DNA of 31,989 nt from a virus: positions 1-31,989 of the IMG/VR virus record IMGVR_UViG_3300029286_000167; one strand, 5' to 3'. Below the pieces are notes generated by a model. The model saw nothing but the letters and a program-made list of their open reading frames with translations. It did no database searches and had not been told where the DNA came from. Positions 1 to 31,989 of this stretch are shown one piece after another (the first letter of the stretch is position 1; every line of letters begins with the position of its first letter). A program made the translations under genes and the position numbers.

Positions 1-2
1 CA

Positions 3-50
3 GGTAGATCCGATAATATTAATGTTGTTCCGTATATAGCGTTGTCGTGA
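3..50 (+). CDS. 3' end of a tail-tip protein gene (partial, second allele)
   Basis: Only the last 15 codons are in the window. Read in frame 3 they end NINVVPYIALS, against NINVVPYIPLT at the end of the complete tail-tip gene at 28748-30673. The stop (TGA, 48-50) lies 10 bases before the thymidine kinase start, as in the other copy. The few bases visible differ clearly between copies, so this is a different allele and not a simple assembly overlap. Confidence 0.6.
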   Translation, partial: GRSDNINVVPYIALS

Positions 51-60
51 GGATAAAGAA

Positions 61-615
61 ATGGGAAAGTTATTTTTTCGTTATGGCGTGATGGGATCTA
101 GTAAAACAGCGTCAGCACTAATGCTCAAATATAATTTTGAGGAAAGAGGACAACAAGTATTATTAGTCAAGTCGTCAGTAGATACACGAGATGGTTTGAA
201 TCAAATTAGCAGTCGTACAGGATTAAGTGCAGAATGTATCACTTTTGAAGAATTATTAAATTACGATTTATTAAATTACGATTTAATTATTGTTGACGAA
301 GTACAATTTGTAAGCAAAAAAGATATAGACGTATTGATTCATATTACAGACAAAATAGGTGTTAACGTCGTTTGTTATGGTTTACGAACAGATTTCCAAG
401 GCAATTTATTTGAGGGAAGTCTACATCTTTTAAGTCACGCCGATAAGATCGAAGAATTAAAGAGCAGTTGTTGGTGTGGCCGAAAGGCTACACACAATGC
501 ACGATTAGACGAGACAGGAAAAGTTATCAAAATAGGTGATCAATTACAAATAGGCGGTAATGATAAATATGTCTCATTATGTCGGAAACATTTCATCACA
601 GGACGATCGTTTTAG
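61..615 (+). CDS. tdk: Thymidine kinase, type II (first allele)
   Basis: Phosphorylates thymidine to dTMP in the cytoplasm. The 184-residue protein has the type II layout: P-loop GVMGSSKTA (residues 9-17), DEVQF in place of the usual DEAQF (79-83), the lasso segment LRTDFQG, and a zinc ribbon with CWCG near 137 and CRKH near 174. The SD GAGGATAAAGAA precedes the ATG. It is the counterpart of 30685-31239. The first ~406 bases are well diverged from that copy, while the last ~210 are nearly identical, so the gene is mosaic. A 15-bp unit, TTATTAAATTACGAT, is tandemly duplicated at 253-282 (LLNYDLLNYDL) just before the DEVQF motif and is absent from the other copy. Confidence 0.9.
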   Translation: MGKLFFRYGVMGSSKTASALMLKYNFEERGQQVLLVKSSVDTRDGLNQISSRTGLSAECITFEELLNYDLLNYDLIIVDEVQFVSKKDIDVLIHITDKIGVNVVCYGLRTDFQGNLFEGSLHLLSHADKIEELKSSCWCGRKATHNARLDETGKVIKIGDQLQIGGNDKYVSLCRKHFITGRSF

Positions 616-637
616 AGTTCTTTATTGCGATCACTGA
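560..637 (+). pseudogene. Stub of the ThyX-like gene (deleted in this allele)
   Basis: The reading frame that begins the ThyX-like protein at 31184 is also present here, starting ATG 560 (or 569) inside the end of the thymidine kinase gene. It stops at TGA 635-637 after FRVLYCDH. Relative to the other copy, the 611 bases equivalent to 31259-31869 are missing between 634 and 635. The rest of the ThyX-like gene is therefore absent and only about 25 codons survive. Confidence 0.7.
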
Positions 638-754
638 AGTGTCACAGAGGGGGGAGAAGTCAAACTATAAAAATTGTTGTGAACTAGCTAACATCATCCA
701 AGCTAAAATGGAGGTAAACGATTTTGTGGGATGTTGTAAGTAACAACGGTGTAG
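635..754. repeat. 120-bp direct repeat, identical to 31870-31989
   Basis: The 120 bases match the last 120 bases of the window exactly, offset 31,235. The simplest reading is that the genome is circular or circularly permuted and the window runs past one unit length. Because the sequence just before each copy differs (deletion of the ThyX-like gene in one), the ends come from two alleles or from a real duplication. Confidence 0.9.
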
Positions 755-1439: not shown

Positions 1440-1693
1440 AGGACTTTATCACGTGGGAAAGCATTTCTCATGTCACAGGTGTAACAATGGTAACAGGATT
1501 AATAACTCAATTGCTTAAAAATATTGTGCCGATTCCGACACAAATACTTGCTTATATTGTGGCCACGCTGGTATTGATTGGTTGTGATATTAAAAACAAG
1601 AATTTCAGCGGGATACCTTTATCTCTCATAAATGGATTTGTTGCAGCGTCTATTGCATCAAATTCTGTCTCACTGGTCAATCGTTTGTGTTGA
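1436..1693 (+). CDS. Putative holin
   Basis: An 85-residue protein with two hydrophobic stretches: around residues 36-50 (AYIVATLVLIGC) and 60-80 (IPLSLINGFVAASIASNSVS), with a weaker one at 12-28. Size, membrane segments and ATGA coupling to the amidase fit a phage holin, which opens the membrane to let the endolysin out. The ATG at 1436 was chosen because GGAGG (1421-1425) lies about 10 bases upstream; the TTG at 1427 is too close. The exact holin family is not recognised. Confidence 0.75.
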   Translation: MKDFITWESISHVTGVTMVTGLITQLLKNIVPIPTQILAYIVATLVLIGCDIKNKNFSGIPLSLINGFVAASIASNSVSLVNRLC

Positions 1694-1893: not shown

Positions 1894-2078
1894 ATGTAGC
1901 GATTTTAGTACTATTAAGTATAGGATTAATTTTACAGATTAATCACAGATACTCAACCTTGCGACGTATTCAAAAAGTAGAACAACATGTTTTCGGAGAG
2001 TGCGATGAATATTTACAAAAAAATTCAGCAAGTAAAAAGAAAATTGCTAACAGCAAACATAAAAAAAAGCGGTTATAA
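1878..2078 (+). CDS. Small membrane protein (hypothetical)
   Basis: Sixty-six residues with one membrane segment (about 4-21: LLNVAILVLLSIGLILQI) and a very basic C-terminus (ASKKKIANSKHKKKRL). The ATG follows a strong SD (GAGGAGGTGAAT). It is the first gene after the palindromic early promoter, and its last 74 bases overlap the ERF gene in another frame. Early phage membrane proteins are often host-takeover or superinfection-exclusion factors, but nothing in this sequence says which. No family recognised. Confidence 0.65.
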   Translation: MDTLLNVAILVLLSIGLILQINHRYSTLRRIQKVEQHVFGECDEYLQKNSASKKKIANSKHKKKRL

Positions 2079-2532
2079 TCCGTACGCTAAATTCAATTAT
2101 TATGAATTGACCGATTTTGTACCATACATTGTTCAATATTGTGATGATATTGGTTTATACACAACTTTTACATTCAATCCCGCTGAAGGGATCTTGAAAA
2201 TAATAAACATTGATAAACCCGAAGAAATCGTCGAGTGTGCCATGCCAATGGCACGTGCCGAAATAAAAGGATGTAACGAAGTACAGTTGTTGGGTGGAAC
2301 AGTAACTTATTTAAAACGTTATTTGTACCTTAACGCTTTTGATATTGTCGAAAGCGATCTTTTCGATGCTCAAAATTTCACAGATAAGGAATATCGTTGT
2401 GAGACTTGTAAAAAGAAGTTCGAACACCTAGTAAACGAAGATGGTACAGTACTTAGCGCTGAAACGCAATACAAACAATTAGAAGTCAAATATGGTCGGG
2501 TAATATGTCAACAGTGCAGGAGGACAAACTAA
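2005..2532 (+). CDS. erf: ERF-family single-strand annealing protein
   Basis: Phage recombinase that anneals complementary single strands during replication and repair. The N-terminal ~125 residues match the ERF family: IYKKIQQVKRKL, then the YAKFNYYELTDFVPYI segment and the conserved core GGTVTYLKRYLYLNAFDI. A C-terminal zinc-finger-like part follows (CETC near 134, CQQC near 171). The ATG at 2005 is preferred over 1987 because GGAGAG lies just upstream. The stop overlaps the next start (TAATG). It works naturally with the YqaJ exonuclease at 7537. Confidence 0.8.
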   Translation: MNIYKKIQQVKRKLLTANIKKSGYNPYAKFNYYELTDFVPYIVQYCDDIGLYTTFTFNPAEGILKIINIDKPEEIVECAMPMARAEIKGCNEVQLLGGTVTYLKRYLYLNAFDIVESDLFDAQNFTDKEYRCETCKKKFEHLVNEDGTVLSAETQYKQLEVKYGRVICQQCRRTN

Positions 2533-2729: not shown

Positions 2730-3259
2730 AAACTGTTGTGTGGCATATTCATATACTCCCTAAACTCTACCGCTTTAATCTCCTTGTTTTTCCATTTCAC
2801 ATAATATTTGTTCCACTTTTCTTCGTCTAACTGGTTAGGTTTACGTCCTTTATATTTACCTTTATTTTTTGCTAGGTCTATACCTTCCCGCTGACGTTGT
2901 AACAAGCAATCTCTTTCCAGTTGAGCAATAGCTCCAAATATAGTCAATACGCACATTCCTACAGCTGTGCTAGTATCAACCGCCTCTTTCTGAATAATCA
3001 ATCCAACTTCTTTCTTCTTTAAAAAGTCAACGATATCTAATAAATCTTTAGTATTACGTGCTAATCTCGAAATACTTTCAACTACTACACAATCACCTTC
3101 ACGGACAAATTCCAACATTGTCTGTAACATTGGTCGATCTCGATTCTTTCCACTAAGTTTATCAATGTAAATTTTTTGTGCACCTAATTTTCTTAAAATT
3201 ATTTCTTGTCTTTCTATGTTTTGTTCTTCTGTGCTTACTCTGACATATCCTATTTTCAT
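2690..3259 (-). CDS. Serine recombinase (resolvase/invertase family)
   Basis: Cuts and rejoins DNA at paired short sites through a serine-DNA link, to resolve multimers or invert segments. The 189-residue protein has an N-terminal catalytic domain with R7 and the nucleophile S9 (YVRVSTEEQN), the arginine pair R65/R68 (SRLARNT), and the long helix (QLERDCLLQRQREG). A C-terminal helix-turn-helix ends it (VEFREYMNMPHNSFYRKVRQLEE). It is small, like Tn3 resolvase or Hin, not a large phage integrase. The start at MKIGYV has SD AGAGGTAAG; the longer open frame upstream has none. It is transcribed against the phage genes from its own promoter (3299-3327). Confidence 0.9.
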   Translation of the reverse strand: MKIGYVRVSTEEQNIERQEIILRKLGAQKIYIDKLSGKNRDRPMLQTMLEFVREGDCVVVESISRLARNTKDLLDIVDFLKKKEVGLIIQKEAVDTSTAVGMCVLTIFGAIAQLERDCLLQRQREGIDLAKNKGKYKGRKPNQLDEEKWNKYYVKWKNKEIKAVEFREYMNMPHNSFYRKVRQLEEKTI

Positions 3260-5528: not shown

Positions 5529-5551
5529 TATTATTATCACCTCTTAGATTT

Positions 5552-6462: not shown

Positions 6463-7601
6463 ATTACATACGCAAAGCACGTCCAAATTGGCTATATGAT
6501 TGTGACACAGGGATAGGTAAAACCGTGATGGGACTTGCTCATTATAGGGCTCATTTTAGTGATGTACCACTTGCTATAGTAGCACCAGCAAGCAAAATCA
6601 AAGAGGGTGGCTGGCAAAGAACATTAAAACAAATGTGTCCAAATAAACCGTATAGAATTTGTTCTTACAATAAATTAAAAAACAGTTTGGAATCCTTATT
6701 TGGTCACTTTATTATTTTCGATGAGTGCCATAGGCTAAAAGACTCATGCGGTGTCTGGGGCAAAGCTGCTTACAAAATATGCACAAAAGCAAAAGGATTT
6801 ATTATGTTATCAGCAACCCCAATTCCCAACACTTGGGAGGATGCGATAAATTACTTTAAAATTTTTGGACTCATTAAAAATAAGACAACATTTATTAATC
6901 GTTTTGCATTGTACACCCGACGATATGGTTATTTCGAAGTGATAGGTTGGAGAAACGAACATAAAATTAAGGCAATGTGGCAATCCATCTCAAAACGACT
7001 AAATAAAGAAGATTGTATTGATTTACCACCAATCGTTTTTAAAGATGTTTTTTTCGAGCAATCCAGAGAATACAAAAAAATATTAAAAACAAGAGTATTA
7101 GACGGGGTACCTTATGATTGTTCAATGTCGTGGAGACACGCATTGCGTAAATTTACATCACCACACGAGAAAATGGATTATCTGAAAGACTTTTTGGAAT
7201 CTACTAATCAAAATGTAGTGATATTTTACAACTACAAATACGAACTGGAATTACTCAAACAGTCTATAAAAGATAAGACCATTTACGAGTGCAATGGACA
7301 AACCAAAAATCTACCACCATATGGCACAAAAATTAAAAATAGTGTCACTTTAGCAAACTACAAAAGCGGTAGCGAGGGGGTCGAATTTACCTATGCAAAT
7401 ATAATCATCTATTTCAGTCCAACAGAAAGTTATACGGAATTTTACCAATCCTATGGTCGTTGTCACAGACTTAATCAAGACAGTAAGGTTACGGTTTATC
7501 AATTTAAAACACTCAACAGCATTGAGGAGGCTATTTATGATGCATTACAAAATAAACAAGATTTTGTGTTCGATCTGTGGGAGGCAAAAATTGCAGGATA
7601 A
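6435..7601 (+). CDS. SNF2-type DEAD/H helicase
   Basis: An ATP-dependent DNA translocase of superfamily 2, 388 residues. Motif I DCDTGIGKT (near 21-29), motif II DECH (near 95), motif III SATPIPNTWED (near 125), and motifs V-VI SGSEGVEFTYA and QSYGRCHRLNQ (near 310-348) are all present. The pattern TPIPNTWEDAINYFKI is characteristic of the small phage SNF2 helicases found next to VRR nucleases. It starts with TTG at 6435 after SD GAGGAGGT. It probably works with the neighbouring nuclease on replication or recombination intermediates. Confidence 0.9.
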   Translation: MLELFDYQLNYIRKARPNWLYDCDTGIGKTVMGLAHYRAHFSDVPLAIVAPASKIKEGGWQRTLKQMCPNKPYRICSYNKLKNSLESLFGHFIIFDECHRLKDSCGVWGKAAYKICTKAKGFIMLSATPIPNTWEDAINYFKIFGLIKNKTTFINRFALYTRRYGYFEVIGWRNEHKIKAMWQSISKRLNKEDCIDLPPIVFKDVFFEQSREYKKILKTRVLDGVPYDCSMSWRHALRKFTSPHEKMDYLKDFLESTNQNVVIFYNYKYELELLKQSIKDKTIYECNGQTKNLPPYGTKIKNSVTLANYKSGSEGVEFTYANIIIYFSPTESYTEFYQSYGRCHRLNQDSKVTVYQFKTLNSIEEAIYDALQNKQDFVFDLWEAKIAG

Positions 7602-8439
7602 AAATATAACCGAGAAAAGGGATCGTTATTTGGGTGGATCAGATTTGCCCAAGGTTATGACGACTAGCAATTTATACCGACTTGCTCACGAAAAACTTAA
7701 CCCTAAATTTCACGGCAATGAGTACACCTTTTATGGGCAATTTATCGAGCCAAAAATACGTCAATATATCAATTATAGTCAAGGTTATGAGTTTGCCCCA
7801 GCAACAATAATACGAGGCGAGTATCGTGGTAATTGTGACGGTATAGACGACCGATTTGGAAAATTATTAGAGATTAAGACGTATGGTGCAGATTTAGACT
7901 TAAATTATTATTTACCGCAAATTCAATGCTATTTAGAATTGTTTGATTTGAAAAATTGTATTGTTGCAGCATATCAACGACCAGATAATTTTTTCCATTG
8001 GGGGGATATTACTAGTCCGCAGAGTTATAACCTTGAATTCAATACCGACAGAATCGAAATGTATCTGGTACAAAGGAACAAGGCAACATGGCGTAAAATC
8101 GACCGTCGAGCGTCTAATTTTATGCGAGGACTTAATGCATTACGGACAAATCCAGCATCGAAAGAACGGGATTTCAACATTCAAGTTTACGGCAAGAGGT
8201 TTGTTGAATTGACAGAAGCATGGCGAGATTCTAAAGAACTACAAGACTTGTGTGTCCGTGAGGATATTTACAAAGCACAAATTGGAGGTGTGCATATTGC
8301 CCGAACAGATATATCTGAATTAGTGATCGATGTCGGTCGGTTAGCCGAAGAAATGCCCGAAGTTTTTGAGAAATATAAGAATATCAAGAATTCAAAGAAA
8401 TTTGCGATCAGGAGAAACAAGTATGTTATTGCCGATTAA
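7537..8439 (+). CDS. YqaJ-type recombination exonuclease
   Basis: Lambda-exonuclease-like enzyme that resects double-strand ends to feed the annealing protein. The fold's marks are present: RYLGGSDLPKVM at the N-terminus, FIEPKIRQYI, GNCDGIDD, the catalytic LLEIKTY and YYLPQIQCYLEL. The start is ATG 7537 (or 7540) after GAGGAGG at 7524-7530; the longer open frame lies inside the helicase gene. The gene overlaps the helicase by 65 bases and the following ATPase by 17. The N-terminal CSICGRQ stretch is unusual for the family. Confidence 0.85.
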   Translation: MMHYKINKILCSICGRQKLQDKNITEKRDRYLGGSDLPKVMTTSNLYRLAHEKLNPKFHGNEYTFYGQFIEPKIRQYINYSQGYEFAPATIIRGEYRGNCDGIDDRFGKLLEIKTYGADLDLNYYLPQIQCYLELFDLKNCIVAAYQRPDNFFHWGDITSPQSYNLEFNTDRIEMYLVQRNKATWRKIDRRASNFMRGLNALRTNPASKERDFNIQVYGKRFVELTEAWRDSKELQDLCVREDIYKAQIGGVHIARTDISELVIDVGRLAEEMPEVFEKYKNIKNSKKFAIRRNKYVIAD

Positions 8440-9079
8440 TATTCCCAAAATTGCCAATGTCACACCAAAGAACTTTTTTATTTGGGGTGAAAGTATGTCT
8501 GGAAAGACGTATCTTGCAACAGAGTTTCCAAATGCTTTATTGCTCAACACGGACGGTAATGCAATTAAAGTCAAAACACCGTCGCTTGATATACGTGATT
8601 ATAGCGAGTTTTTACAAACCATTGAAGAATTAGAAAAAGGGGGACACACCTATGAGTCCATAATTATTGATCTTATCGATGACGTCCGCACAATGGTCAA
8701 CAACCACGTTTGTGCAAAATACAAGATAGAGACACTCAGTGACTTGAAATACGGCAAAGCATCAGGTGAATTTAAAGATTTATGGATCAAATTAATGACA
8801 AGGTTATCACAATTACCTTACAACGTTATTTTTGTCTCTCATATTATCGAAGCAAACGGATTTGAGGCAAAAGACGTAGACAAACCATCTTTACCACAAC
8901 GAGAACTCAATGTGTGCATGGGACGTTGTGACTTATCCATACGTTGCAAAAAGATAGGCGAAAACTATATTAGACAATGCGATCGAAAAAGACACCATTA
9001 TAAACCCGAAGATATCCAAGATAAACGAGTTACCGAAATACTTAACAATGTAAAAAATTTAATTGAAAAAGGAAATTGA
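8423..9079 (+). CDS. Sak4-like / AAA_24 ATPase
   Basis: A RecA-fold single-domain ATPase of 218 residues, of the group called Sak4 or phage nucleotide-binding protein, which helps single-strand annealing. The Walker A is GESMSGKTYLA (near 21-31) and the Walker B SIIIDLIDD. A histidine-containing VIFVSHIIEANG follows, typical of the family. The start is ATG 8423 with SD AGGAGAAACAAGT; the upstream ATG at 8366 lies inside the exonuclease gene. It is followed by a DUF669-like protein, a common pairing in phages. Confidence 0.8.
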   Translation: MLLPINIPKIANVTPKNFFIWGESMSGKTYLATEFPNALLLNTDGNAIKVKTPSLDIRDYSEFLQTIEELEKGGHTYESIIIDLIDDVRTMVNNHVCAKYKIETLSDLKYGKASGEFKDLWIKLMTRLSQLPYNVIFVSHIIEANGFEAKDVDKPSLPQRELNVCMGRCDLSIRCKKIGENYIRQCDRKRHHYKPEDIQDKRVTEILNNVKNLIEKGN

Positions 9080-9084: not shown

Positions 9085-9468
9085 ATGGAATTACAAGCAA
9101 TTATAGAACGAATCGTTGTAGAAAATACCCCTAAACCAGCAGTAGAACAAGGTACTTATGATGCTACAGTTTGCAAAATAGAAGCACGCAAAAACGACAA
9201 AGGTACGCATTGGTTGTCTTTTATCTGCGAATTGGAGGATGGTCGTACAATCGACGTACGTTATTATTTCACTGAAAAAACAGCGGGACGATCGTTTCAC
9301 GAGATAAAAAGATTGGCACGTGACTTTGAATTAAAACTCAATGTACAAGAATTCAAATCTTTAAATTATTTAGCAAACCTTTTCGCACCAATTTTAGGTC
9401 TAACAATCGCACTAAATATTGCGGTAAACGGAGAATACACAAATTACGTTATAGGCAGGTGTAAATGA
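9085..9468 (+). CDS. DUF669-like single-strand DNA-binding protein
   Basis: A 127-residue protein with the pattern of the DUF669 family, thought to bind single-stranded DNA and usually encoded beside Sak4-like ATPases. Seen: an OB-like strand set beginning EQGTYDATVCKIEARKNDKG, then HWLSFICELEDGRTIDVRYY, and a final region ILGLTIALNI. The start is ATG 9085, because SD AAAGGAAA is properly spaced to it and not to the TTG at 9076. It ends one base before the polymerase start. Confidence 0.65.
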   Translation: MELQAIIERIVVENTPKPAVEQGTYDATVCKIEARKNDKGTHWLSFICELEDGRTIDVRYYFTEKTAGRSFHEIKRLARDFELKLNVQEFKSLNYLANLFAPILGLTIALNIAVNGEYTNYVIGRCK

Positions 9469-9469: not shown

Positions 9470-11155
9470 ATGTATGCTTACGATTTCGAAGTTTTCCCAC
9501 ACGATTGGTTAGTAGTTTTCAAAAATTACGAAGAAACCATTGTCGTACATAATGATGTGAATAAACTAAAACAAGTGATCGTCGGAATGAAAATTCCGAC
9601 GTTGGTCGGCTTTAATAATTATCATTACGACGATCTAATACTAACCAAACTATTGTCACCCGATGTGACAAAATCAGAGATTTATAACTTATCTCAAAAA
9701 ATAGTAAAAAGCAAGGATAATTTATTTGCCAATTTGAAAATATTAACTTTAGATGTCAAACAAGAATTAGCGTTAGATTTGTCACTAAAATCAATAGAAG
9801 CGCATTTAGGTTTAGATATTGTTGAGTGCTCAGTACCGTGGAATATAGACAGACCGTTGACACAGGAAGAAATCGCAGAGGTTACAAAATATTGCATTCA
9901 CGACGTGGACGCTACCCTTAAAATTTGGAAATTAAGACAGGATTATTTTTCAGCAAAAGCAAATCTAGTTAGGGAATTCAACTTGCCTTATACCGCTCTC
10001 AAAAAGACGCAAGCATCTTTAGCAGCAGAAGTTTTGAATTGCATACCCGTTACACCACCACACGATCGTCTAAAAATTGATTACGATCCTAATATCGATT
10101 GGGAATTAATACCCTACAACGTCCGAAAATTTTTCGAAGATACAACAAAAAGATATGCACGTAATGAAAGTTTTGAAAAGTTAGAAAAACGCGAAATGTC
10201 TATAATTCTGAATTCCGTTCCTCATTGCGTGGGATTTGGTGGTCTACACGGGGGACTAATCAATTACATAGGGGAAGGTGTATTTTGGCACATAGACGTT
10301 AGTTCTTATTACCCTAGCTTGATTATCAATAATAATTGGATGTCACGTGCATCTCTCAAACCAGAGAAATACAAAGAAATTAGAGACACTAGATTCAAAT
10401 TGAAAGCACAAGGTGATACACGAGAATATGTCTACAAAATTATTCTGAATTCCACTTTTGGAGCGATGAAGTCCAAGTACAATAAATTATTTGATCCAAA
10501 ACAAGCGAACAATATTTGTGTCAATGGTCAGCTTATTTTGATTCAATTAATCAGGGAATTAAAACCTTTTATACGATTAATTCAGTCAAATACAGACGGT
10601 CTAATCGTTGAAGTTTTAGATGCTGAGGGGATTAAGTTAGTACTCAATTCATTCAGTTGTCGTTTCAACCTAGACTTTTCAGTTACTCATCTCAAAAAGA
10701 TAGTTCAGCGGGACGTGAACAATTATGCAGCACAAACAATAGACGGCAAAATTAAAACTAAGGGCGTTTTTTCAGAGAAAAGCTGGAAGAATAACAGCCT
10801 CAACATCATTCCAAAGGCACTCAAAAAATTGTATTTTGAGGGAGGTGATTTGTTAGATACTATTAGGAATTCCAATATTTTGGATTATCAAATTGTCGCT
10901 AAAGCTGGTAGCAAATACGACCATATCAGCCAAAACGGAATGAAGTTGCAAAAATGTAACAGGATTTTCGCAACCCCCAATGGGTCACCAATCTACAAAT
11001 GTAAGATTAAAGCCGACCAATTAACCTACAACAAGATACCGAACACCAGTGATAAAAGTACCCCATGGAATGGGTCAGATTATGACAACAATGTAACTAT
11101 TGACTACAACTTTTATCACAATCTAATTTCGCAAGAGCTCAAAAGTTTTCAATAA
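9470..11155 (+). CDS. Family B DNA polymerase (short, phage type)
   Basis: The replicative polymerase, 561 residues, with an N-terminal 3'-5' proofreading domain: Exo I DFE (5-7), Exo II FNNYHYDD, and Exo III YCIHDVDATLK near 142. Polymerase motif A is HIDVSSYYPSLII (near 273), motif B KIILNSTFGAMKSKYN (near 322) and motif C SNTDGLIVE (near 372). Motif C is NTD rather than the common DTD, as in several other short phage enzymes. The protein is short even for the family. It is followed by the primase-helicase gene. Confidence 0.9.
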   Translation: MYAYDFEVFPHDWLVVFKNYEETIVVHNDVNKLKQVIVGMKIPTLVGFNNYHYDDLILTKLLSPDVTKSEIYNLSQKIVKSKDNLFANLKILTLDVKQELALDLSLKSIEAHLGLDIVECSVPWNIDRPLTQEEIAEVTKYCIHDVDATLKIWKLRQDYFSAKANLVREFNLPYTALKKTQASLAAEVLNCIPVTPPHDRLKIDYDPNIDWELIPYNVRKFFEDTTKRYARNESFEKLEKREMSIILNSVPHCVGFGGLHGGLINYIGEGVFWHIDVSSYYPSLIINNNWMSRASLKPEKYKEIRDTRFKLKAQGDTREYVYKIILNSTFGAMKSKYNKLFDPKQANNICVNGQLILIQLIRELKPFIRLIQSNTDGLIVEVLDAEGIKLVLNSFSCRFNLDFSVTHLKKIVQRDVNNYAAQTIDGKIKTKGVFSEKSWKNNSLNIIPKALKKLYFEGGDLLDTIRNSNILDYQIVAKAGSKYDHISQNGMKLQKCNRIFATPNGSPIYKCKIKADQLTYNKIPNTSDKSTPWNGSDYDNNVTIDYNFYHNLISQELKSFQ

Positions 11156-14529: not shown

Positions 14530-14898
14530 ATGAAGAAAAAAGTAGGGAGAGGACTAGCATTCAAATCAGTTGAAGAATTGAATTCAAAACTAGAAAACTA
14601 CAAGGAGTACCTAACTAAGACGGGTAAGCCACCGACAATGGCGGGATTAGCCTATTATTTAGGAATAGACAGACGTACGCTTTACAACTATGCAGAAAAG
14701 GATGAATTTTTTCACACTATAAAAAACTTTAGGGATTGGATCATGATGACACTTGAAGAATCAGCAATAGAAAAGGGAAATGGTGGAATAGTCTTTTTAC
14801 TCAAGAACTATGGATACACAGACCAGCAGAATGTTGACGTCACTGGTGGGGTAGATTTACATATCAAGTGGGTAAGTGATGGAAATACAACTAAATAG
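14530..14898 (+). CDS. terS: Terminase small subunit
   Basis: DNA-packaging subunit that recognises phage DNA. About 122 residues, with the terminase small-subunit pattern PPTMAGLAYYLGIDRRTLYNYAEK (a helix-turn-helix, around 35-60) and a later ESAIEKGNGGIVFLLKNYGY, which is the signature shared by this family. The ATG 14530 is taken as start; the GTG at 14521 overlaps the end of the previous gene. The last 20 or so bases overlap the large subunit gene. Confidence 0.85.
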   Translation: MKKKVGRGLAFKSVEELNSKLENYKEYLTKTGKPPTMAGLAYYLGIDRRTLYNYAEKDEFFHTIKNFRDWIMMTLEESAIEKGNGGIVFLLKNYGYTDQQNVDVTGGVDLHIKWVSDGNTTK

Positions 14899-16063
14899 TG
14901 CCTATAAGCCAGCAAGAGAAACGAAAGCAAGATATCGAGTGATTTATGGTGGTGCTGGATCAGGCAAATCACGGTTTGTCGGACAAGAAACTATTATAAA
15001 TATGCTAATAGACAGCAACTTTAAATATCTTGTGGTACGTAAAACAAGCAGAAGTATCCGTGAATCAGTCTATGCCGAACTTGAGAGTCTTATTAACTCA
15101 TATAATCTCCACAAATATTTCAGAATCAACAAAACAGAAATGTCGTTCGAGTGCATTAATGGTTCGAAACTAATAACCAGCGGATTAGATAATGTTGAAA
15201 AACTTAAGTCTATTCAGGGAGTCAATAGGATTTGGGTAGAGGAAGCATCAGAGATTTCAGAGAACGATTTCACTCAACTTGACTTACGTATGCGAGGTAA
15301 AAACAATCTTAATTACCAAATGACCGTTACATTTAATCCTATTTCAGAATTACATTGGTTGAAGAAAAAGTTTTTTGACGTTGGAATGCAAGACTGTTTC
15401 ATACTCAAAACAACATACAAAGACAACTCATTTCTAGATGAGAGATACATAAAAACCTTAACCGAACTGAAGGAAATAGACTACCAATATTACAAAATTT
15501 ATTGTTTAGGGGAGTGGGGTAGTTTAGGAAATTTAATTTATAACAATTGGGAAAAGCAGGATTTATCTAAGATAAAAGATACTTTTGACAATCATTTCAA
15601 CGGTCTAGATTGGGGATTCTCCGATGATCCTACCGCAATAATACGTGTACATTTGGATAGTAAGCATAAGACTTTATACGTTGTGGACGAAATTTATCAG
15701 CGGGAATTACATACCGACCAAATCGCCAACATTTTGAAAGACAAAATTGGTAATGAATACATTACTTGCGATTCATCCGAACCTAGAAGTATAGCAGACT
15801 TAAAGCGACACGGAATAAAAGCTAAAGGTGCGAAAAAGGGAAAGGGAAGCATAGAACACGGAATCAAGTACTTGCAAGGTTTAAAAATTGTAGTTGACAA
15901 TGTGTGCATAAACACCATAAAGGAGTTGACAAGTTACAAATGGCGAGAAGACAAAGACGGCAATGTTATTGCTAATCCAGTAGATCGAAATAATCACTTA
16001 TTAGATGCTTTACGGTATGGACTAGAAGATGAAATGATTAGTAAAGATAAATGGGGATGGTAG
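14879..16063 (+). CDS. terL: Terminase large subunit
   Basis: Packaging motor ATPase and nuclease. The Walker A is YGGAGSGKSRF (near 24-34) and the Walker B region RIWVEEASEI. The C-terminal nuclease shows GLDWGFSDDPTAI, the SSEPRSIADLKRHG segment and the terminal HLLDALRYG. The pattern is that of Terminase_3 (PBSX/SPP1-like headful packaging). A GTG at 14876 would add one residue. Headful packaging fits the circular permutation suggested by the window ends. Confidence 0.95.
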   Translation: MEIQLNSAYKPARETKARYRVIYGGAGSGKSRFVGQETIINMLIDSNFKYLVVRKTSRSIRESVYAELESLINSYNLHKYFRINKTEMSFECINGSKLITSGLDNVEKLKSIQGVNRIWVEEASEISENDFTQLDLRMRGKNNLNYQMTVTFNPISELHWLKKKFFDVGMQDCFILKTTYKDNSFLDERYIKTLTELKEIDYQYYKIYCLGEWGSLGNLIYNNWEKQDLSKIKDTFDNHFNGLDWGFSDDPTAIIRVHLDSKHKTLYVVDEIYQRELHTDQIANILKDKIGNEYITCDSSEPRSIADLKRHGIKAKGAKKGKGSIEHGIKYLQGLKIVVDNVCINTIKELTSYKWREDKDGNVIANPVDRNNHLLDALRYGLEDEMISKDKWGW

Positions 16064-17549: not shown

Positions 17550-18411
17550 TCTTGCAGACAACATAGAAGAACGCCTAACAAATAAACAAGTACGATTGTT
17601 AGTTAAGAATTACAAAATAGCATTAAAAGAAATTAAGTCGTCAATTGCAACAGGATTTGAACAATACGGTGGCGATTGGGTAGAGATGAATAAATACAAT
17701 CGTCTTTTAATGCTTGAAAAATCCATAACTGAAGAAATACGTAAATTAACAGCTAAGAATGCAGTGAGTATGATATCGGGAACAAAGAACACCTACATGG
17801 AGTCTTATTATGTCACAGGATACGTATTAGAGAGTGATTTAGGGGTGAAGTTAGGATTTGGTTTATTAGATCCAGTAGCAGTAACTAAAGCCATTCAAAA
17901 TCCACTAGATCGTGTTGGTTTCTTGCAACGCAACAGGGACAACCAAGCCAAAATGACAAAACAATTATTAGAAACATTAACACAAGGATTAATCAAGGGT
18001 GATTCTTACCATACAATCGCCAAAGCAGTCACGAAAAATATGGAAGTTGGAGCGTCCAACGCTGAAAGAATTGTACGTACTGAAAACCACAGAGTATTAT
18101 TGCAAGCACGCCTAGATGGTATGGGTAAAGCAGAGAAAAAAGGGATCGATATAAAAAAGCAATGGTCGTCCGCCCGAGACGAACGTACGAGAGCAGCACA
18201 CAAACAACTAAACGGTGTAACAATCCCGCTGAACGCTCTTTTTCAGTCAAGTACAGGAGCACGAGGAATGGGGCCAGGACAAATGGGATCGACAGCAGAC
18301 GATATTAATTGTCGTTGTAGTTTAGTATCAATAGTAGACGATTACGAACCTAAAACCACCACTGAAAAGTTTGTAAATTACGAGGGGTGGTATAAGGATA
18401 GAATACAGTGA
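17533..18411 (+). CDS. Minor head / head morphogenesis protein (MuF/SPP1 gp7-like)
   Basis: A 292-residue protein. The C-terminal domain is the MuF type: AERIVRTENHRVLLQARLDG near 175-195, then KKQWSSARDERTRAAHKQLNG and DDINCRCSLVSIVDDYEP, with the conserved N-C-R-C. Ejected or internal head protein with a role in portal assembly. The overlap with the portal gene suggests translational coupling. Two hairpins follow in the 91-base gap before the next gene (18415-18435 and 18457-18471), neither with a T run. Confidence 0.9.
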   Translation: MTNNYSLADNIEERLTNKQVRLLVKNYKIALKEIKSSIATGFEQYGGDWVEMNKYNRLLMLEKSITEEIRKLTAKNAVSMISGTKNTYMESYYVTGYVLESDLGVKLGFGLLDPVAVTKAIQNPLDRVGFLQRNRDNQAKMTKQLLETLTQGLIKGDSYHTIAKAVTKNMEVGASNAERIVRTENHRVLLQARLDGMGKAEKKGIDIKKQWSSARDERTRAAHKQLNGVTIPLNALFQSSTGARGMGPGQMGSTADDINCRCSLVSIVDDYEPKTTTEKFVNYEGWYKDRIQ

Positions 18412-18502: not shown

Positions 18503-19120
18503 ATGGAATGGTTGGATGAAATACTCAATAATACAGAATTAACAGACAAAAAAGATGCAATTTGTAAGGAATTAGCAAAACATTTTGTTCCTAAACATGT
18601 TTTCAATGAACAGTCGGAAAAATTAAAAGATAAAACAACAGAATTAGAAACGGTAAATAGCAAGTTTGAAGAAACCGTTAACAATTTACCGAAAGTTGAG
18701 AGTGAGCGAGAAGAATTGAAAACAAAACTGGAACAAATAAAAACAGATTTCGAAAACTTTAAAACCGAGACAGATAATAGAGTTTTGATTCTAAAAAAAC
18801 GTCAAGCGGTTGAAAAAGGTTTGAGAGATGCCCGAGCTAATCCAGACACGATTGATTTATTGTTAGACAAATTTAATTACGATGAAATAGAGTTAGATGG
18901 TGATAAGATTTCAAATTTTGACAAACTCATCGAACCTATGAGGAGTGAAAGAAAGTCACTTTTTGGTGAAATAAAAATCAGCGGGACAGATATAACCAAA
19001 GGAGTCAATGCACCAACTACAACATATAGGACTAAATACGACGAAGCGTTACGGAACGGTAAAACTTTAGACGCTATAAAAATTAAGCAAGAAGCGTTTA
19101 AGCAAGGTGAATATATTTAA
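18503..19120 (+). CDS. Capsid scaffold protein (GP20-like)
   Basis: A highly charged 205-residue protein, mostly one long coiled coil (about 35-105: EKLKDKTTELETVNSKFEET and following KxE-rich heptads) and then a segment with RDARANPDTIDLLLDKFNYD, the pattern seen in phage minor structural GP20/scaffold proteins. Its place directly before the major capsid gene is the standard one. It would shape the procapsid and then be removed or degraded. SD AGAGGTATTGAA. Confidence 0.85.
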   Translation: MEWLDEILNNTELTDKKDAICKELAKHFVPKHVFNEQSEKLKDKTTELETVNSKFEETVNNLPKVESEREELKTKLEQIKTDFENFKTETDNRVLILKKRQAVEKGLRDARANPDTIDLLLDKFNYDEIELDGDKISNFDKLIEPMRSERKSLFGEIKISGTDITKGVNAPTTTYRTKYDEALRNGKTLDAIKIKQEAFKQGEYI

Positions 19121-20115: not shown

Positions 20116-21441
20116 ATGGCAACAATAGAAATTAATACATTACGTGAACCAGAGTTGCGAAAAGTATTCACAGATTTATTAGATACCACCGACGGACACG
20201 ACCATGATGGAATTAATAGCAAATCCTTGTCAGCATCCGCCGTAGTAGCTAATAATAGTGTCAATGAGGCAAAGATTGTAGATGGGGCAGTTACCGCCGC
20301 AAAATTAGCAAGCGACGCGGTGACTACCGTAAAAATTCTTGATGGTAACGTGACCGCAGCAAAACTAGATAGTGATGCAGTGACTACAGTCAAAATTCTT
20401 GATGCTAATGTCACAGCGGGAAAACTGGCAAGCGACGCCGTAACTACAGTGAAAATATTAGACGGGAATGTAACTACAGGAAAACTAGCAAGCGACGCCG
20501 TAACTACAGTGAAAATATTAGACGGGAATGTAACTACAGGAAAACTAGCAGCGGGAGCGGTAACAGCAACCGAGTTAGGAAGTGACGCGGTTACAACCGC
20601 AAAAATACTAAACTCAAATGTAACAGCAGCAAAATTAGGAAGTGACGCGGTTACAACAGCTAAGATTTTGAACGCTAATGTTACAGCGGACAAATTAGCA
20701 ACCGATTCAGTGACTACAATCAAAATTGCAGATGCTCAGGTTACTACCGCTAAAATTACAGACGCCAACGTGACAGCGGATAAATTAGCGAGTGACGCGG
20801 TGACTACAGCTAAAATACTAAATGCCAATGTAACAGCCGATAAGTTGGCAGCCGATGCGGTTACTACCGTAAAAATACTAAACGCTAATGTGACAACAAC
20901 TAAGATTGCAGATTTGAATGTTACAACCGACAAATTAGCAGCGAGTGCGGTTACGACCGCTAAAATTACAGATGCAAATGTAACAGCTGGAAAACTAGCA
21001 AGTGATTCAGTAACTACAGTGAAAATTTTGAATGGTAATGTGACAAGTCCGAAGATATCACCACAATTTATGCACGTTGCGGTCGTTGAGTTAACAGCGG
21101 GTAACGCCAATGCGGTTGCTTTTGCATGGGAGAACGAAGAGGCGACAGATGCAATAGTACATAGAGTACTTGTGGATATTACAGCAGCGGGAGGGACAGC
21201 GACGTCCGTTTTAAATATTGGATCAGCGGCAACAGCGGTAACAGAGTCAGATAATTTGCTGGATGGTATTGACGCCAACGCTCAAGCAGTTTATGACAAC
21301 TTAAGCGACGCCGGTACTAATGGCACAACAAAACAGCGAGTTGATGCAGGTAAATTTGTAACGGGAACAATCAAAATAGCAAACGCCGCCTCTTTAGCAG
21401 GTTACGTTTACATTTATTACACAGCAATTCCAGCAGCGTAG
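20116..21441 (+). CDS. Head fibre-like protein with 27 decapeptide repeats
   Basis: 441 residues. A short N-terminal part carries HDHDGINSK (near 29-36), a motif common in phage fibres, and then residues 48-317 are 27 units of 10 residues with pattern [A/N]VT-x-x-K-[I/L]-x-x-x, alternating AVTTVKILDG and NVTAGKLASD types. Such regular short repeats form beta-prism or beta-helix shafts, often as trimers. The C-terminal ~125 residues (HVAVVELTAGNANAVAF...) form a separate globular domain. Encoded between capsid and connector genes, it is probably a capsid decoration. Part of the repeat is a recent exact 60-bp duplication (about 20428-20550). Confidence 0.6.
   Translation: MATIEINTLREPELRKVFTDLLDTTDGHDHDGINSKSLSASAVVANNSVNEAKIVDGAVTAAKLASDAVTTVKILDGNVTAAKLDSDAVTTVKILDANVTAGKLASDAVTTVKILDGNVTTGKLASDAVTTVKILDGNVTTGKLAAGAVTATELGSDAVTTAKILNSNVTAAKLGSDAVTTAKILNANVTADKLATDSVTTIKIADAQVTTAKITDANVTADKLASDAVTTAKILNANVTADKLAADAVTTVKILNANVTTTKIADLNVTTDKLAASAVTTAKITDANVTAGKLASDSVTTVKILNGNVTSPKISPQFMHVAVVELTAGNANAVAFAWENEEATDAIVHRVLVDITAAGGTATSVLNIGSAATAVTESDNLLDGIDANAQAVYDNLSDAGTNGTTKQRVDAGKFVTGTIKIANAASLAGYVYIYYTAIPAA
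20428..20550. repeat. Exact 60-bp tandem duplication within the decapeptide array
   Basis: The unit starting GCAAGCGACGCCGTAACTAC is repeated at exactly 60 bases, spanning two decapeptide pairs. No silent changes separate the copies, so the duplication is young and the repeat number probably varies among phages. Confidence 0.85.
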
Positions 21442-21455: not shown

Positions 21456-21686
21456 ATGAAATTTTATTCCAACGTTCCCGCTGAAATATTTTGGGATAAT
21501 TCCGAACGAAAGGCGTTATGCGCCTTTTCGGACGGGGTATATGAAACAGAAAATCCAAGAGAGATCGAGATATTAAAACAATATTATCGATATGATGAGG
21601 AGGTGATAGTAGATGAGTCAGTCCAGAACAACGCAATTAGCAGAGTTCGAGAACGAAAGACTAACATTGGCAAAAAGAGTAATTAA
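21456..21686 (+). CDS. Small unknown head-region protein
   Basis: Seventy-six residues beginning MKFYSNVPAEIFWDN, with aromatic and acidic residues in the first half and a basic end (RVRERKTNIGKKSN). The form (a beta-hairpin domain of 40-50 residues with EILKQYYRYDE) is common among small phage proteins between capsid and connector genes, but no function is known to me. SD GGAGGGTGC. It overlaps the next gene by 74 bases. Confidence 0.6.
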   Translation: MKFYSNVPAEIFWDNSERKALCAFSDGVYETENPREIEILKQYYRYDEEVIVDESVQNNAISRVRERKTNIGKKSN

Positions 21687-22200
21687 TACCGATCATGCTT
21701 ATATACACGAAAAGTTAGGATACATAATGTTTATAGAGCAGGCAACAGTAAGTAACAGTCAATATGCAATAAAAACACCAGCCTTAAAATATTTACACTT
21801 TAAGAATCTAAAAATGAGTGCAGCGGGAGGAACAGTAAGGTTTGCAATACGCAGATCCACTGTTACCAATCCTATAGATATTAATTCAGCGGGATCAACG
21901 TCCGCAGATGTGACAGGGCCACACAATATGAACGAGTACGGTCTAGCCTCAGGAGTTGTTGTGACTAAGACAGCAACATACAACAACGCGAAAAGTGGTG
22001 AGGATTGGTTTGTTGGAATTGTTCAGGGTAGCGCAACGAATCAATTTACATCTATTGGTGAAACCTCCATGGGTGAGAATCAAGAGTTTGTGATGAAACC
22101 TAATAGTTACTACATTATCGATATAAAAAAGGTTGGTAGTGATACAGCAGCAAACGTCACAATGTCGGCGTTTTGGTATGAAGAGACAGGCGGTGCATAA
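21613..22200 (+). CDS. Virion structural protein of the head-tail region (unknown)
   Basis: A 195-residue beta-rich protein with RTTQLAEFENERLTLAKRVI at the start, a middle region with GGTVRFAIRRSTV and an end with NSYYIIDIKKVGSD and NVTMSAFWYEE. The pattern resembles phage decoration or fibre heads rather than enzymes. SD AGGAGGTGATAGTAG is excellent, and the start lies within the previous gene. Stop and the next start overlap as TAATG. It may bind the repeat protein at 20116, an idea only from proximity. Confidence 0.5.
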   Translation: MSQSRTTQLAEFENERLTLAKRVINTDHAYIHEKLGYIMFIEQATVSNSQYAIKTPALKYLHFKNLKMSAAGGTVRFAIRRSTVTNPIDINSAGSTSADVTGPHNMNEYGLASGVVVTKTATYNNAKSGEDWFVGIVQGSATNQFTSIGETSMGENQEFVMKPNSYYIIDIKKVGSDTAANVTMSAFWYEETGGA

Positions 22201-23440: not shown

Positions 23441-24097
23441 ATGGCAGGTATTTTTGGGTACGGTACAATCTTTTCGGCAACAGTAAGTAACGTCTTAACA
23501 CCTATTGCCGAGTTGCTAGATATCGCAGGATTAGAACTAGAAGCAGACGACGTTGATTTAACGACACACAGTTCGGCAAACGGTTATCGTCAATACGTTC
23601 AAGGGTTGAAGGATGGCGGAGAAGTATCGTTAGAGGGTAATTTTGCAAGTGACAGTAGTCAGGTTGCTTTAAAAACATTATTTGACAGCGGGACAACTGT
23701 TGCGATGACAATTGCATTTCCTAATGGGGGAGGGGTCTGGTCGTTTAATGGGTACGTGAAAGGTATCTCAACAGATGCACCACATGACGATAAAATCGAG
23801 TTTACCGCAACAATTAAAGTAACAGGGCAACCGACTTTAACAAGCAGTTCAAACGTTTACAGTGCAGTTTTGACAATTCAGGACGAGTTGGCAGCAGCAG
23901 TTGAGGGTGCAATAGTGTACTTGAACGATAAAACTGTGGAAACTTTAGCAGACGGTGTGGCAACATTTACAAACTTAACAAATGGTACGTATGGTTGTTT
24001 GATAGCAAAAGATGGATATGTAACACAAACCGCAAGCGCAGAAGTGAATAACGCAAATGTGTTGGATACTATTACTTTTGTAGCCGTACCTAACTGA
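23441..24097 (+). CDS. Major tail (tube) protein with C-terminal Ig/PEGA-like domain
   Basis: The 218-residue protein has an N-terminal tube domain (1-135) with AGLELEADDVDLTTHSS and VQGLKDGGEVSLEGNF, the pattern of siphovirus tube proteins. A C-terminal domain (about 138-218) has VTQ-, LNDKTVETLADGVATFTNLT and GTYGCLIAKDGYVTQTASAEV, which looks like a PEGA or carboxypeptidase-regulatory-like beta-sandwich. Such domains decorate tails and may bind host surfaces weakly. SD GGAGGTTTAAA. Confidence 0.85.
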   Translation: MAGIFGYGTIFSATVSNVLTPIAELLDIAGLELEADDVDLTTHSSANGYRQYVQGLKDGGEVSLEGNFASDSSQVALKTLFDSGTTVAMTIAFPNGGGVWSFNGYVKGISTDAPHDDKIEFTATIKVTGQPTLTSSSNVYSAVLTIQDELAAAVEGAIVYLNDKTVETLADGVATFTNLTNGTYGCLIAKDGYVTQTASAEVNNANVLDTITFVAVPN

Positions 24098-24782: not shown

Positions 24783-24786
24783 AATT

Positions 24787-26772
24787 TTGGCAGTAGCAGA
24801 ATTAGAAATATCGATAGATATAGATGAGAAGAGTGCGATCGCAGGTTTGACAAGGTTACAGGATACTTTTGCAAATATGCTAGACAATTTAGGTGCAGGG
24901 GTGGATGAACTCAAGAAAAAATGGGATCAGTTTGGGGGAGAAATACCAAAGTTACCAAAAGCACCAGATCCGTTCGAAACTCCCAAGAAAAGTTCGGATG
25001 AATTCCAAAAGAAAATGTTGTCTATGGGAACAGCGTTGTCAGCGTCGGGTATGGCAATGACTCAATCTTTAACACAACCTATTACTCAGTTTGGACAAGC
25101 GTCGTTCGAAGCATATGGAAATTTTGAAAAAGCATTATCTGGTGTCAAAACAGTTACAGGTGGAACGGCTGAAAGTTTGACACAATTAGAAGCTAAAGCA
25201 ATGAGTATAGGGTCAACAACAAAATATTCAGCAACCGAAGCAGCTAACGCTATGTATTTCATGGGATCAGCGGGATGGTCAACTGGTGAAATTATGTCTG
25301 GTTTGGAAGCAGTCACCACGTTAGCTACAGCAGCAGATGTGGATTTAGCGACAGCATCAGAATTTTGTACAAGTACTATGGCAGCATTTGGACTAACCGC
25401 AGATCAGACGTCACAATTCACCGACGTTTTGGCAGTAGCTGCAGCAAAGACAAATACAGACGTAACAGGTATGGGTGCAGCGATGAAATATGTTGCTCCC
25501 GTAGCGGGTGCATTGGGATATAGCGTGCAAGATACAGCGCTTGCAATAGGATTAATGTCAAATGCAGGAATCAAGGGTGAGCAAGCTGGTACGTCGTTAC
25601 GTGCGTCTTTAAGTAGTTTGATTAGTCCGAGTTCCGAGGCAGCGGGAGTGATGCAACAATTAGGGATTAACATGACAGACTCATCGGGTAAAGCGTTACC
25701 ATTCAATCAGGTTTTAGGCAATTTGAGAACGTCTTTTGGTGGATTATCCGAGGATCAGAAAGTACAAGCCGCAAGCACCTTGTTCGGTCAAGAGGCAATG
25801 TCTGGAATGCTTGCGGTTATTAATGCATCTGATGAGGATTTCAACGGGTTACAAACATCATTACAAAATTCCGATGGTGCCGCCAAAGATATGGCTAAAA
25901 CGATGGGAGACAACGCACCATCAAAAATCGATCAAATGAAAGCTAAAATAAACACACTACAAATAGAATTGGGGGAGAAATTAGCACCCGCAATTGAGGG
26001 CGTTTTAACTTTTGTAAGTAATTTGTTAGATTGGTTTAGCAAACTAGACGGGACAACACAAGGATTAGTTTTGATCATTTTGGGTTTAGTTGCAGCAATA
26101 GGGCCGGTAGCAGGTATTTTGGGTGGTATTGCTACAATTGCAGGTGTGTTGGCGCCGCTTTTAGCAACCGTCGGGGGTGCATTTGCCGCAATTACAGCCC
26201 CAGTTTGGTTGGTTATTGGAGCTATAGCAGCAGCAATAGCGATTGGTATTTTGTTGTGGAAGAATTGGGACACAATCAAAGAATGGTGTGGGAAGTTGTG
26301 GTCGTGGATTAAGGAAAAATGGGACGCTATAAAAGATGCGATTGTGAATGCAGTAAGTCGTGCGATTGATTGGGTAAAGTCAATCGATTTATTCCAAATT
26401 GGTAAAAACATGATTCAAGGTCTGATAAATGGTGTGGTCAATATGGCAACAGCTATATGGAACGCAATTGTAAATACAGTAAAGGGAGCAATCGATGGAG
26501 CAAAGAAGTTTTTAGGTATATCATCACCATCCAAACTCATGATGGACGTCGGAATAAATACAGGTAAAGGTTTGATTATTGGTATCGATGATACTTACGA
26601 TAATGTCGCTAAAGCATCAAGCGGATTGGGAAAGGCGGTAACGGATGGTTACGGTCAAAATAACAATTATAGTAATAACATGCAGAGTAACGTCACAATC
26701 AACGTCCGTTCAGCAGCTGAAGCGGTAAAAGAGATAATGGTGCTAAATAAACAGCTAGCGATGGGATGGTAA
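24787..26772 (+). CDS. Tape measure protein
   Basis: Sets tail length and is ejected into the host. 661 residues, so a tail of roughly 100 nm if the common ratio of about 0.15 nm per residue holds. Seen: the conserved N-terminal helix AELEISIDIDEKSAIAGLTRLQ, a family domain (FGQASFEAYGNFEKALSGVKTVTGG, near 85-110), a hydrophobic region around 430-490 with GLVLIILGLVAAIGPVAGI and AAIAIGILLWKNW, and a C-terminal MIQGLINGVVN. It starts with TTG after SD GAGGGGGTGA. Confidence 0.9.
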   Translation: MAVAELEISIDIDEKSAIAGLTRLQDTFANMLDNLGAGVDELKKKWDQFGGEIPKLPKAPDPFETPKKSSDEFQKKMLSMGTALSASGMAMTQSLTQPITQFGQASFEAYGNFEKALSGVKTVTGGTAESLTQLEAKAMSIGSTTKYSATEAANAMYFMGSAGWSTGEIMSGLEAVTTLATAADVDLATASEFCTSTMAAFGLTADQTSQFTDVLAVAAAKTNTDVTGMGAAMKYVAPVAGALGYSVQDTALAIGLMSNAGIKGEQAGTSLRASLSSLISPSSEAAGVMQQLGINMTDSSGKALPFNQVLGNLRTSFGGLSEDQKVQAASTLFGQEAMSGMLAVINASDEDFNGLQTSLQNSDGAAKDMAKTMGDNAPSKIDQMKAKINTLQIELGEKLAPAIEGVLTFVSNLLDWFSKLDGTTQGLVLIILGLVAAIGPVAGILGGIATIAGVLAPLLATVGGAFAAITAPVWLVIGAIAAAIAIGILLWKNWDTIKEWCGKLWSWIKEKWDAIKDAIVNAVSRAIDWVKSIDLFQIGKNMIQGLINGVVNMATAIWNAIVNTVKGAIDGAKKFLGISSPSKLMMDVGINTGKGLIIGIDDTYDNVAKASSGLGKAVTDGYGQNNNYSNNMQSNVTINVRSAAEAVKEIMVLNKQLAMGW

Positions 26773-28740: not shown

Positions 28741-28747
28741 GGTATAA

Positions 28748-30673: not shown

Positions 30674-30684
30674 GGAGATTTACT

Positions 30685-31239
30685 ATGTCTAAATTGCATT
30701 TTAGGTATGGGGTAATGGGATCAAGCAAGACAGCACACGCATTGATGCTCCATTACAACTTTAAAGAGCGAAATAGATCATCGTTATTAGTTAAGCCAGC
30801 CATAGACGACAGAGATGGATCAGATATTATCAAATCTAGATGTGGATTAGAATCTAAGTGTTTATTATTTGATAAATTAAGTGTTAAAAAAGCACAAGGA
30901 TATGAAATTGTAATAGTAGATGAAGCTCAGTTTTTGAAATTGGAAGATGTAAAGTTACTAATTAGTTTAGTTGATGATTATGATGTAACGGTAATTTGCT
31001 ATGGATTAAGGACGGATTTTAAGGGCGAACTATTTGAGGGAAGTCTACATCTTTTACGTCACGCCGATAAGATCGAAGAATTAAAGAGCAGTTGTTGGTG
31101 TGGCCGAAAGGCTACACACAATGCACGATTAGACGATACAGGAAAAGTTGTCAAAATAGGTGATCAATTACAAATAGGCGGTAATGATAAATATGTCTCA
31201 GTATGTCGGAAACATTTCATCACAGGACGATCGTTTTAG
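30685..31239 (+). CDS. tdk: Thymidine kinase, type II (second allele)
   Basis: Same enzyme as at 61-615, with the standard motifs: GVMGSSKTA (9-17), DEAQF with E80 as likely base (79-83), lasso LRTDFKG, and zinc residues C137, C139, C174 and H177. SD AAGGAGATTTACT. This copy is followed by a full ThyX-like gene, overlapping it by 56 bases, so salvage of thymidine and de novo-type synthesis would be made together. Confidence 0.9.
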   Translation: MSKLHFRYGVMGSSKTAHALMLHYNFKERNRSSLLVKPAIDDRDGSDIIKSRCGLESKCLLFDKLSVKKAQGYEIVIVDEAQFLKLEDVKLLISLVDDYDVTVICYGLRTDFKGELFEGSLHLLRHADKIEELKSSCWCGRKATHNARLDDTGKVVKIGDQLQIGGNDKYVSVCRKHFITGRSF

Positions 31240-31864
31240 AGTTCTTTATTGCGATCACGATTTAATACTTAACCATTTAGCTGAATCTTTAGTATTTGCA
31301 GGATTCCCAATGCGAGCATCAATTCCCGCTGCCTCAGTGGGATTAGAAGTAGAGAGTACTCTCAACGCCTTAAAAAATCGCAATCTAAATACTATAGATT
31401 TCAAAAGAGCAATGAAGTTAGGACAAGCAAAAGGTGGGGGAGGTCACGATTGTTTCCTCAAAGGAATTACAGTCAGTGCAGTATTCAAAGCACCACAATA
31501 TTTTTGGCAACAGATCAAGAGATATCATTTTTTCGATATTATCAGTAGTCAAAGTACTATGCACAGAATAGTTTCCATGGATATTCAAAAGAATTGCACT
31601 AAAGATACAGATGAAAGAATAATCAAAATAGTCAATGAGTACATAGCACTATTTACAGCTACACACGATCAACAATATTTCCAAAAAATAATAAGCAACC
31701 TACCGTCTGGATTTATGTTGTCAGCGGGAATTACTACAAACTATTTACAACTGAAAACAATAGCTAATCAAAGAGGTAATCACAAATTACCAGAATGGAG
31801 TGTCAACTTTATGGACTTTATTTATGGTTTGCCGTATTTCAAAATACTAGTAGGATGTGAGTAG
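31184..31864 (+). CDS. ThyX-like protein (divergent flavin-dependent thymidylate synthase fold)
   Basis: 226 residues that follow the ThyX fold order: GGGHDCFLKGITVSAVFKAP for the HD-x-x-L-x-H region, QQIKRYHFFDIISSQSTMHRI for the substrate-binding motif, and LPSGFMLSAGITTNYLQLKTI with NHKLPEWSVNFMDF for the C-terminal helix pair. The canonical RHR-x7-S motif is altered to RYH and the spacing of the serine changed, so activity is uncertain. The start is ATG 31184 (31193 also possible), well inside the thymidine kinase gene and without a strong SD; translation is probably coupled. Known phage relatives are often annotated as ThyX. Confidence 0.6.
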   Translation: MINMSQYVGNISSQDDRFRVLYCDHDLILNHLAESLVFAGFPMRASIPAASVGLEVESTLNALKNRNLNTIDFKRAMKLGQAKGGGGHDCFLKGITVSAVFKAPQYFWQQIKRYHFFDIISSQSTMHRIVSMDIQKNCTKDTDERIIKIVNEYIALFTATHDQQYFQKIISNLPSGFMLSAGITTNYLQLKTIANQRGNHKLPEWSVNFMDFIYGLPYFKILVGCE

Positions 31865-31869
31865 CTGGA

Positions 31870-31989
31870 TGAAGTGTCACAGAGGGGGGAGAAGTCAAAC
31901 TATAAAAATTGTTGTGAACTAGCTAACATCATCCAAGCTAAAATGGAGGTAAACGATTTTGTGGGATGTTGTAAGTAACAACGGTGTAG
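31870..31989. repeat. 120-bp direct repeat, identical to 635-754
   Basis: The last 120 bases match 635-754 without a difference; see the entry there. It follows the ThyX-like stop by 5 bases, whereas the other copy follows the deletion joint. Confidence 0.9.

Follow-up and report, generated by a model that had tools for sequence, protein, structure and literature searches.

A candidate host Chi octamer over-represented in two phages

We found that the exact eight-letter word CAGCGGGA occurs in 19 copies (14 on the plus strand and 5 on the minus strand) in a viral contig (31,989 bases, 36.5% G+C), the whole of which we call the window, and that the same word is the top 8-mer of a second phage, G309 (IMGVR_UViG_3300042991_000439; 40.8 kb, 33% G+C; loci L142-L144), which carries 14 copies (12 on the plus strand and 2 on the minus strand) compared to about 0.2 expected. 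We think it fairly probable, from the sequences, that this word is a candidate Chi of the phage's host, which is itself probably Gram-positive and equipped with an AddAB-type helicase-nuclease, and that the word would have accumulated by selection. This reading is the best supported, because the word has the same statistical signature as Chi has in phage P1 and because G309 carries the same word at non-homologous sites.

The window encodes TerS, TerL (the latter assigned through PHROG terminase families), a portal protein, a tail-fibre-like protein, DNA polymerase, primase, helicase, an SSB-like protein and an Amidase_3 endolysin, as well as three recombination genes of its own (Table 1). Strong Shine-Dalgarno sites precede many of its genes, and a Gram-positive host therefore fits. 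Since the last 120 bases (31870-31989) are exactly repeated at 635-754, the genome is probably a closed (circular) or permuted molecule of 31,235 bp; the stretches before the repeat (371-634 and 30995-31258) are 94% alike. The contig looks like this genome plus a variant 5' end without the ORF that follows the thymidine kinase gene; that ORF (31184-31864) is the conserved phage ORF phrog_6721, which adjoins thymidine kinase and is missing at the variant end. There are two thymidine kinase genes (61-615 and 30685-31239), of which the second looks recombinant, with a 5' part like that of L148, a contig of the same species, and a 3' part like the first copy. A resolvase gene (2690-3310, minus strand), an IS605-type TnpB gene (3759-4913, plus strand) and a shorter resolvase-like gene (5031-5540, minus strand) separate the Erf gene from the replication module; the last of the three has a counterpart in G309.

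Table 1. Copies of CAGCGGGA in the window, and recombination and terminase genes
Feature	Coordinates	Strand	Location or family
CAGCGGGA	1606..1613	+	small ORF 1427-1693, holin-like position after endolysin
CAGCGGGA	2178..2185	-	Erf-like gene
CAGCGGGA	2886..2893	-	minus-strand resolvase gene, on coding strand of that gene
CAGCGGGA	9281..9288	+	SSB-like gene
CAGCGGGA	10706..10713	+	DNA polymerase gene, conserved residues VQRDVNNY; other codons there in G309
CAGCGGGA	15698..15705	+	terL
CAGCGGGA	18224..18231	-	gene downstream of portal gene
CAGCGGGA	18979..18986	+	gene before capsid gene, scaffold-like position
CAGCGGGA	20414..20421	+	repetitive tail-fibre-like gene
CAGCGGGA	20549..20556	+	repetitive tail-fibre-like gene
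CAGCGGGA	21185..21192	+	tail-fibre-like gene
CAGCGGGA	21476..21483	-	ORF 21456-21686
CAGCGGGA	21821..21828	+	ORF 21613-22200
CAGCGGGA	21887..21894	+	ORF 21613-22200
CAGCGGGA	23686..23693	+	ORF 23441-24097
CAGCGGGA	25268..25275	+	ORF 24757-26772, tape-measure-like
CAGCGGGA	25640..25647	+	ORF 24757-26772, tape-measure-like
CAGCGGGA	31324..31331	-	ORF 31184-31864
CAGCGGGA	31722..31729	+	ORF 31184-31864
Erf-like ssDNA annealing protein	1987..2532	+	PHROG 155, Pfam ERF
RecE-like recombination exonuclease	7453..8439	+	PHROG 434
Sak4-like ssDNA annealing protein	8366..9079	+	PHROG 124, Pfam AAA_24
Terminase large subunit (would make DNA ends)	14876..16063	+	PHROG terminase families

Excess of the octamer over composition and codon usage

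Every one of the 14 plus-strand and 5 minus-strand positions given by the first-pass annotation was correct, and the over-representation that it claimed was borne out by dinucleotide shuffles, masked Markov models and codon shuffles alike. Dinucleotide shuffles of the window gave 0.30 expected copies (maximum 2 in 100), and the word was the most over-represented 8-mer in the window under both order-2 and order-4 models, with an observed/expected ratio of about 75 (order 2), a density of 0.59/kb and an over-representation score of 63.8. With the sites masked before training, Markov models of orders 3, 4, 5 and 6 predicted 0.43, 0.30, 0.32 and 0.21 copies, so that the excess stands at orders 5 and 6, the orders that the first-pass annotation had named for its check. 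When the sites were left unmasked in training, order 5 predicted 9.0 copies (P = 0.002), but this figure is circular, as most subwords of the octamer then come from the octamer itself.

In coding DNA the word is used in three frames (Ala-Gly 9, Ser-Gly 3, Gln-Arg 2), and the claim that codon preference is insufficient to account for it was upheld by shuffling synonymous codons, which gave 0.54 expected copies on the plus strand (maximum 4 in 1000) compared to 14 observed, and 0.09 on the minus strand (maximum 2) compared to 4 observed. Thus, codon or amino-acid preference does not explain the excess. We considered that composition, codon pairs or internal repeats might nevertheless produce it, as three of the plus sites lie inside a repetitive fibre gene (20116-21441) and the unmasked order-5 model comes as high as 9 copies. 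However, 18 of the 19 sites remain after repeats are collapsed by flank, and neither the masked models (0.2-0.4) nor the codon shuffles come near the observed counts; we consider this origin very improbable. On the same shuffles and masked models we rejected codon, amino-acid and high-order Markov explanations.

The enriched word and its strand distribution

The enriched unit is the octamer and not the pentamer AGCGG within it, since AGCGG is at its order-3 expectation outside the octamer and the neighbours of the octamer are not enriched. Most words that differ from CAGCGGGA by one substitution are absent and none exceeds 3 copies, which is at background; the flanks of the word are unconserved, except that C is never found directly before it, and AGCGGGA without a leading C is absent from the window. 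AGCGG itself is present 40 times on the plus strand and 16 times on the minus strand, close to the approximately 39 and 15 counted in the first pass, but the enrichment ascribed to this core does not extend beyond the octamer, outside of which we observed 36 copies compared to 36.6 expected at order 3 (17.8 at order 2). Thus, the tie to AGCGG as the Chi of the Bacillus subtilis AddAB enzyme is one of containment only, and the pentamer is contained in 0.8% of octamers. Stimulation of recombination by AGCGG has itself been described as unclear (PMC8022716).

The strand bias of the sites, which the first-pass annotation had remarked on, turned out to be no stronger than coding composition produces. 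The split of 14:5 in the window is not significant alone (P = 0.064), and that of 12:2 in G309 has P = 0.013, but codon shuffles alone give plus:minus ratios of approximately 6:1 in the window and 4:1 in G309; therefore, the bias is no evidence of polarity, and we saw no polarity beyond coding composition in the phage. The polarity of Chi is a feature of host chromosomes and is not required in a phage with nearly all of its genes pointing one way. We set aside a signal at the level of RNA, as the word is far over-represented on the minus strand too; both strands being far above expectation, recognition as DNA is favoured over recognition as RNA.

The octamer in G309 and in other relatives

The window and G309 have a replication-recombination module in common, with 50-72% identity for most of its genes and a lower value for the SSB-like protein. 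The helicase, RecE, Sak4, the polymerase, the primase, thymidine kinase and the endolysin are shared at 50-65%, whereas the TerL proteins are only 23% alike, over part of the length, and most structural genes of G309 have no match. In G309 the octamer has a density of 0.34/kb and a score of 46.4, its excess again goes beyond codon composition in codon-preserving shuffles, and 5 of the 8 CGG codons counted fall inside it. The sites in the two phages are non-homologous, and at shared residues only one phage uses the word. Specifically, VQRDV in the polymerase is written GTTCAGCGGGACGTG in the window, whereas G309 has GTTCAACGAGATGTT (QRD is CAAAGAGAT in L036, a further relative), and NSGIT in the endolysin carries CAGCGGGA in G309, but AATAGTGGAATTACA in L147, a fragment overlapping L036. 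Because shared residues carry such synonymous alternatives, the sites were not inherited together, and the two phages gained the octamer independently.

The shared module also raises the possibility that the phage itself encodes the reader of the word within that module, be it the RecE-like nuclease, the SNF2-type helicase or the primase. The word might then mark, for example, a place to pause or to prime, and would be the phage's own analogue of Chi. However, L036/L147, which has the same replication and lysis modules at the same distance, has no copy of the word in about 14 kb, although only approximately 2-5 would be expected there (the homologous stretch holds five sites in the window and about two in G309), and the excess is also absent from 25 other loci of a polymerase scan and 54 loci new in a second such scan. 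We consider a phage-encoded reader unlikely, though not far-fetched; the motif-free L036/L147 weakly favours a host-specific reader over it. L036 contains another word, CTGGGACA, 7 times compared to 0.2 expected, which may be a different Chi-like word; it is absent from L147.

Likewise, the word might have nothing to do with recombination and be a double-stranded DNA signal that serves the phage life cycle in another way, in replication, in packaging or for a virion DNA-binding protein. Its sites are denser in the structural half of the window than in the replication module, but genes of every kind contain them, and the word is also present in G309 in spite of its dissimilar TerL and mostly unmatched structural genes, so that we regard a signal of this kind as unlikely.

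Three further loci, L062, L148 and L205, are not independent evidence, because they belong to the window's own species, with approximately 99.5% DNA identity (L062 and the shared parts of L148) or near-identical proteins (L205); four additional copies of the word come from a divergent fibre segment of L148 and L205. When viral contigs were scanned for a paired-site pattern, the matches listed were fragments of the same species and others due to chance or repeats. Phage records gave no DNA match to the window, and all protein matches there were below 60% identity. G309 also has a second, weaker over-represented word, GGTTACAG (8/3 compared to 0.9), and has genes for type I-like restriction-modification, for DNA methylases and for sugar-modifying enzymes. 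It also has a short ORF whose leader is double-glycine-like, and L147 has a similar short leader ORF.

Known Chi systems, the host and the meaning of the word

Phage P1 provided a calibration for the same statistic, as the E. coli Chi GCTGGTGG, which is read by RecBCD, was its single outlier (50 copies, score 74.6; the runner-up, at 33.6, overlaps Chi). Like Chi in P1, CAGCGGGA is a lone outlying octamer, dispersed and of nearly equal density (0.53/kb in P1 compared to 0.59/kb). In a set of 142 other loci, each 12 kb or longer, with repeats collapsed and the loci somewhat shorter, the best unrelated word scored 28.0 and the median was 10.9, compared to the 63.8 and 46.4 of the window and G309. 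Two features by which Chi is recognized were thus found here: an excess beyond composition and codons, and an exact short word without conserved context. A dispersed, frame-indifferent exact octamer in two phages is, by analogy, what Chi looks like in P1. Unlike P1, in the annotation of which we saw only RdgC-like and Ref-like recombination genes, the window has a different word and RecE-, Sak4- and Erf-like genes.

As of 2021, five species had a known Chi word (PMC8022716); a 2019 paper described that of Clostridioides difficile as undetermined (PMC6344619). The Staphylococcus aureus Chi, GAAGCGG, resembles CAGCGGGA in placing AGCGG within a longer, more specific word (PMC8022716), but the flanking letters differ, and it occurs once in the window compared to 1.1 expected. 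The Lactococcus lactis Chi, GCGCGTG, is likewise short, G-rich and from a Gram-positive host, but it is an unrelated word and is absent from the window. Since phages of these hosts show little or no excess of Chi (phi11 of Staphylococcus has GAAGCGG 5 times compared to 2.0 expected, and TP901-1 of Lactococcus lacks GCGCGTG), an excess of Chi is no general rule for phages whose hosts have AddAB-type enzymes. When the literature was searched for the octamer, the ten papers listed of 69 contained it once each and dealt with unrelated topics.

AddAB switches at Chi from degradation to recombination. If CAGCGGGA is the Chi of the host, a phage DNA end exposed by packaging or breakage could be entered and degraded by host AddAB until the enzyme met the word on the strand that it reads, whereupon it would switch to making a 3' tail for RecA; phage DNA ends would thereby be spared, and could serve in repair or in the formation of concatemers.

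Two features do not fit the Chi reading simply, namely the motif-free L036/L147 and the phage's own recombination genes, which make it less than obvious that the phage simply depends on host recombination. The Chi-dependent phages of Bobay et al. 2013 (PMC3784561) are without a recombinase of their own, in contrast to the window. In that study, coliphages with recombinases but no RecBCD inhibitor had Chi at about host level (median observed/expected approximately 2.4-2.5), compared to medians of 3.1-4.8 for coliphages without recombinases (PMC3784561); the corresponding ratio in the window is about 75 at order 2. The idea of a host-specific Chi recognized by AddAB, raised in the first-pass annotation, is partly supported: it gains from the P1-like signature and from a second phage with non-homologous sites, but the strand bias lends it nothing, AGCGG as such is not enriched outside the octamer, and the phage has recombination functions of its own.

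We found no matching host in the genome collections that we searched. A TerL scan found only distant or partial relatives, at 41% (Sporomusa, G001) and 71% over part of the protein (a contig binned as Riflebacteria), and an endolysin search of 399 genomes of Sporomusa's phylum gave one match, at 36%. In 300 genomes of that phylum there was no signal comparable to that of the phages, with densities of the word at or below about 0.15/kb; in 12 sampled genomes it was at 0.6-3.1 times the order-2 and 0.4-2.0 times the order-3 expectation (samples per genome were small). Nowhere in 40 genomes of the phylum of G002 was the density comparable. These results also bear on a different host signal, such as an FtsK-orienting KOPS/SRS-like or segregation motif copied for a plasmid-like or lysogenic phase. 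Such motifs in bacteria are likewise short, G-rich and polar, but the strand bias here is compositional with both strands enriched, it is not evident why a phage of approximately 31 kb should need FtsK guidance, and the matching host was not found among the 340 genomes of the two phyla; we consider a signal of this type quite improbable.

We conclude that CAGCGGGA is probably a candidate new Chi word, not previously recorded as one. More tentatively, it could be the Chi of an unstudied lineage, readable from phages alone, in which recombinase-bearing phages would keep an excess of Chi far above that of coliphages and use host AddAB alongside their own system. According to a published idea, phages that use host recombination keep Chi, and those that supersede it lose Chi; this case tests that idea, as the word and phage recombination genes coexist here. 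If phages advertise the Chi of their hosts so clearly, the Chi words of uncultured bacteria would be readable from viral contigs, and the matching of phages to hosts by Chi would be possible.
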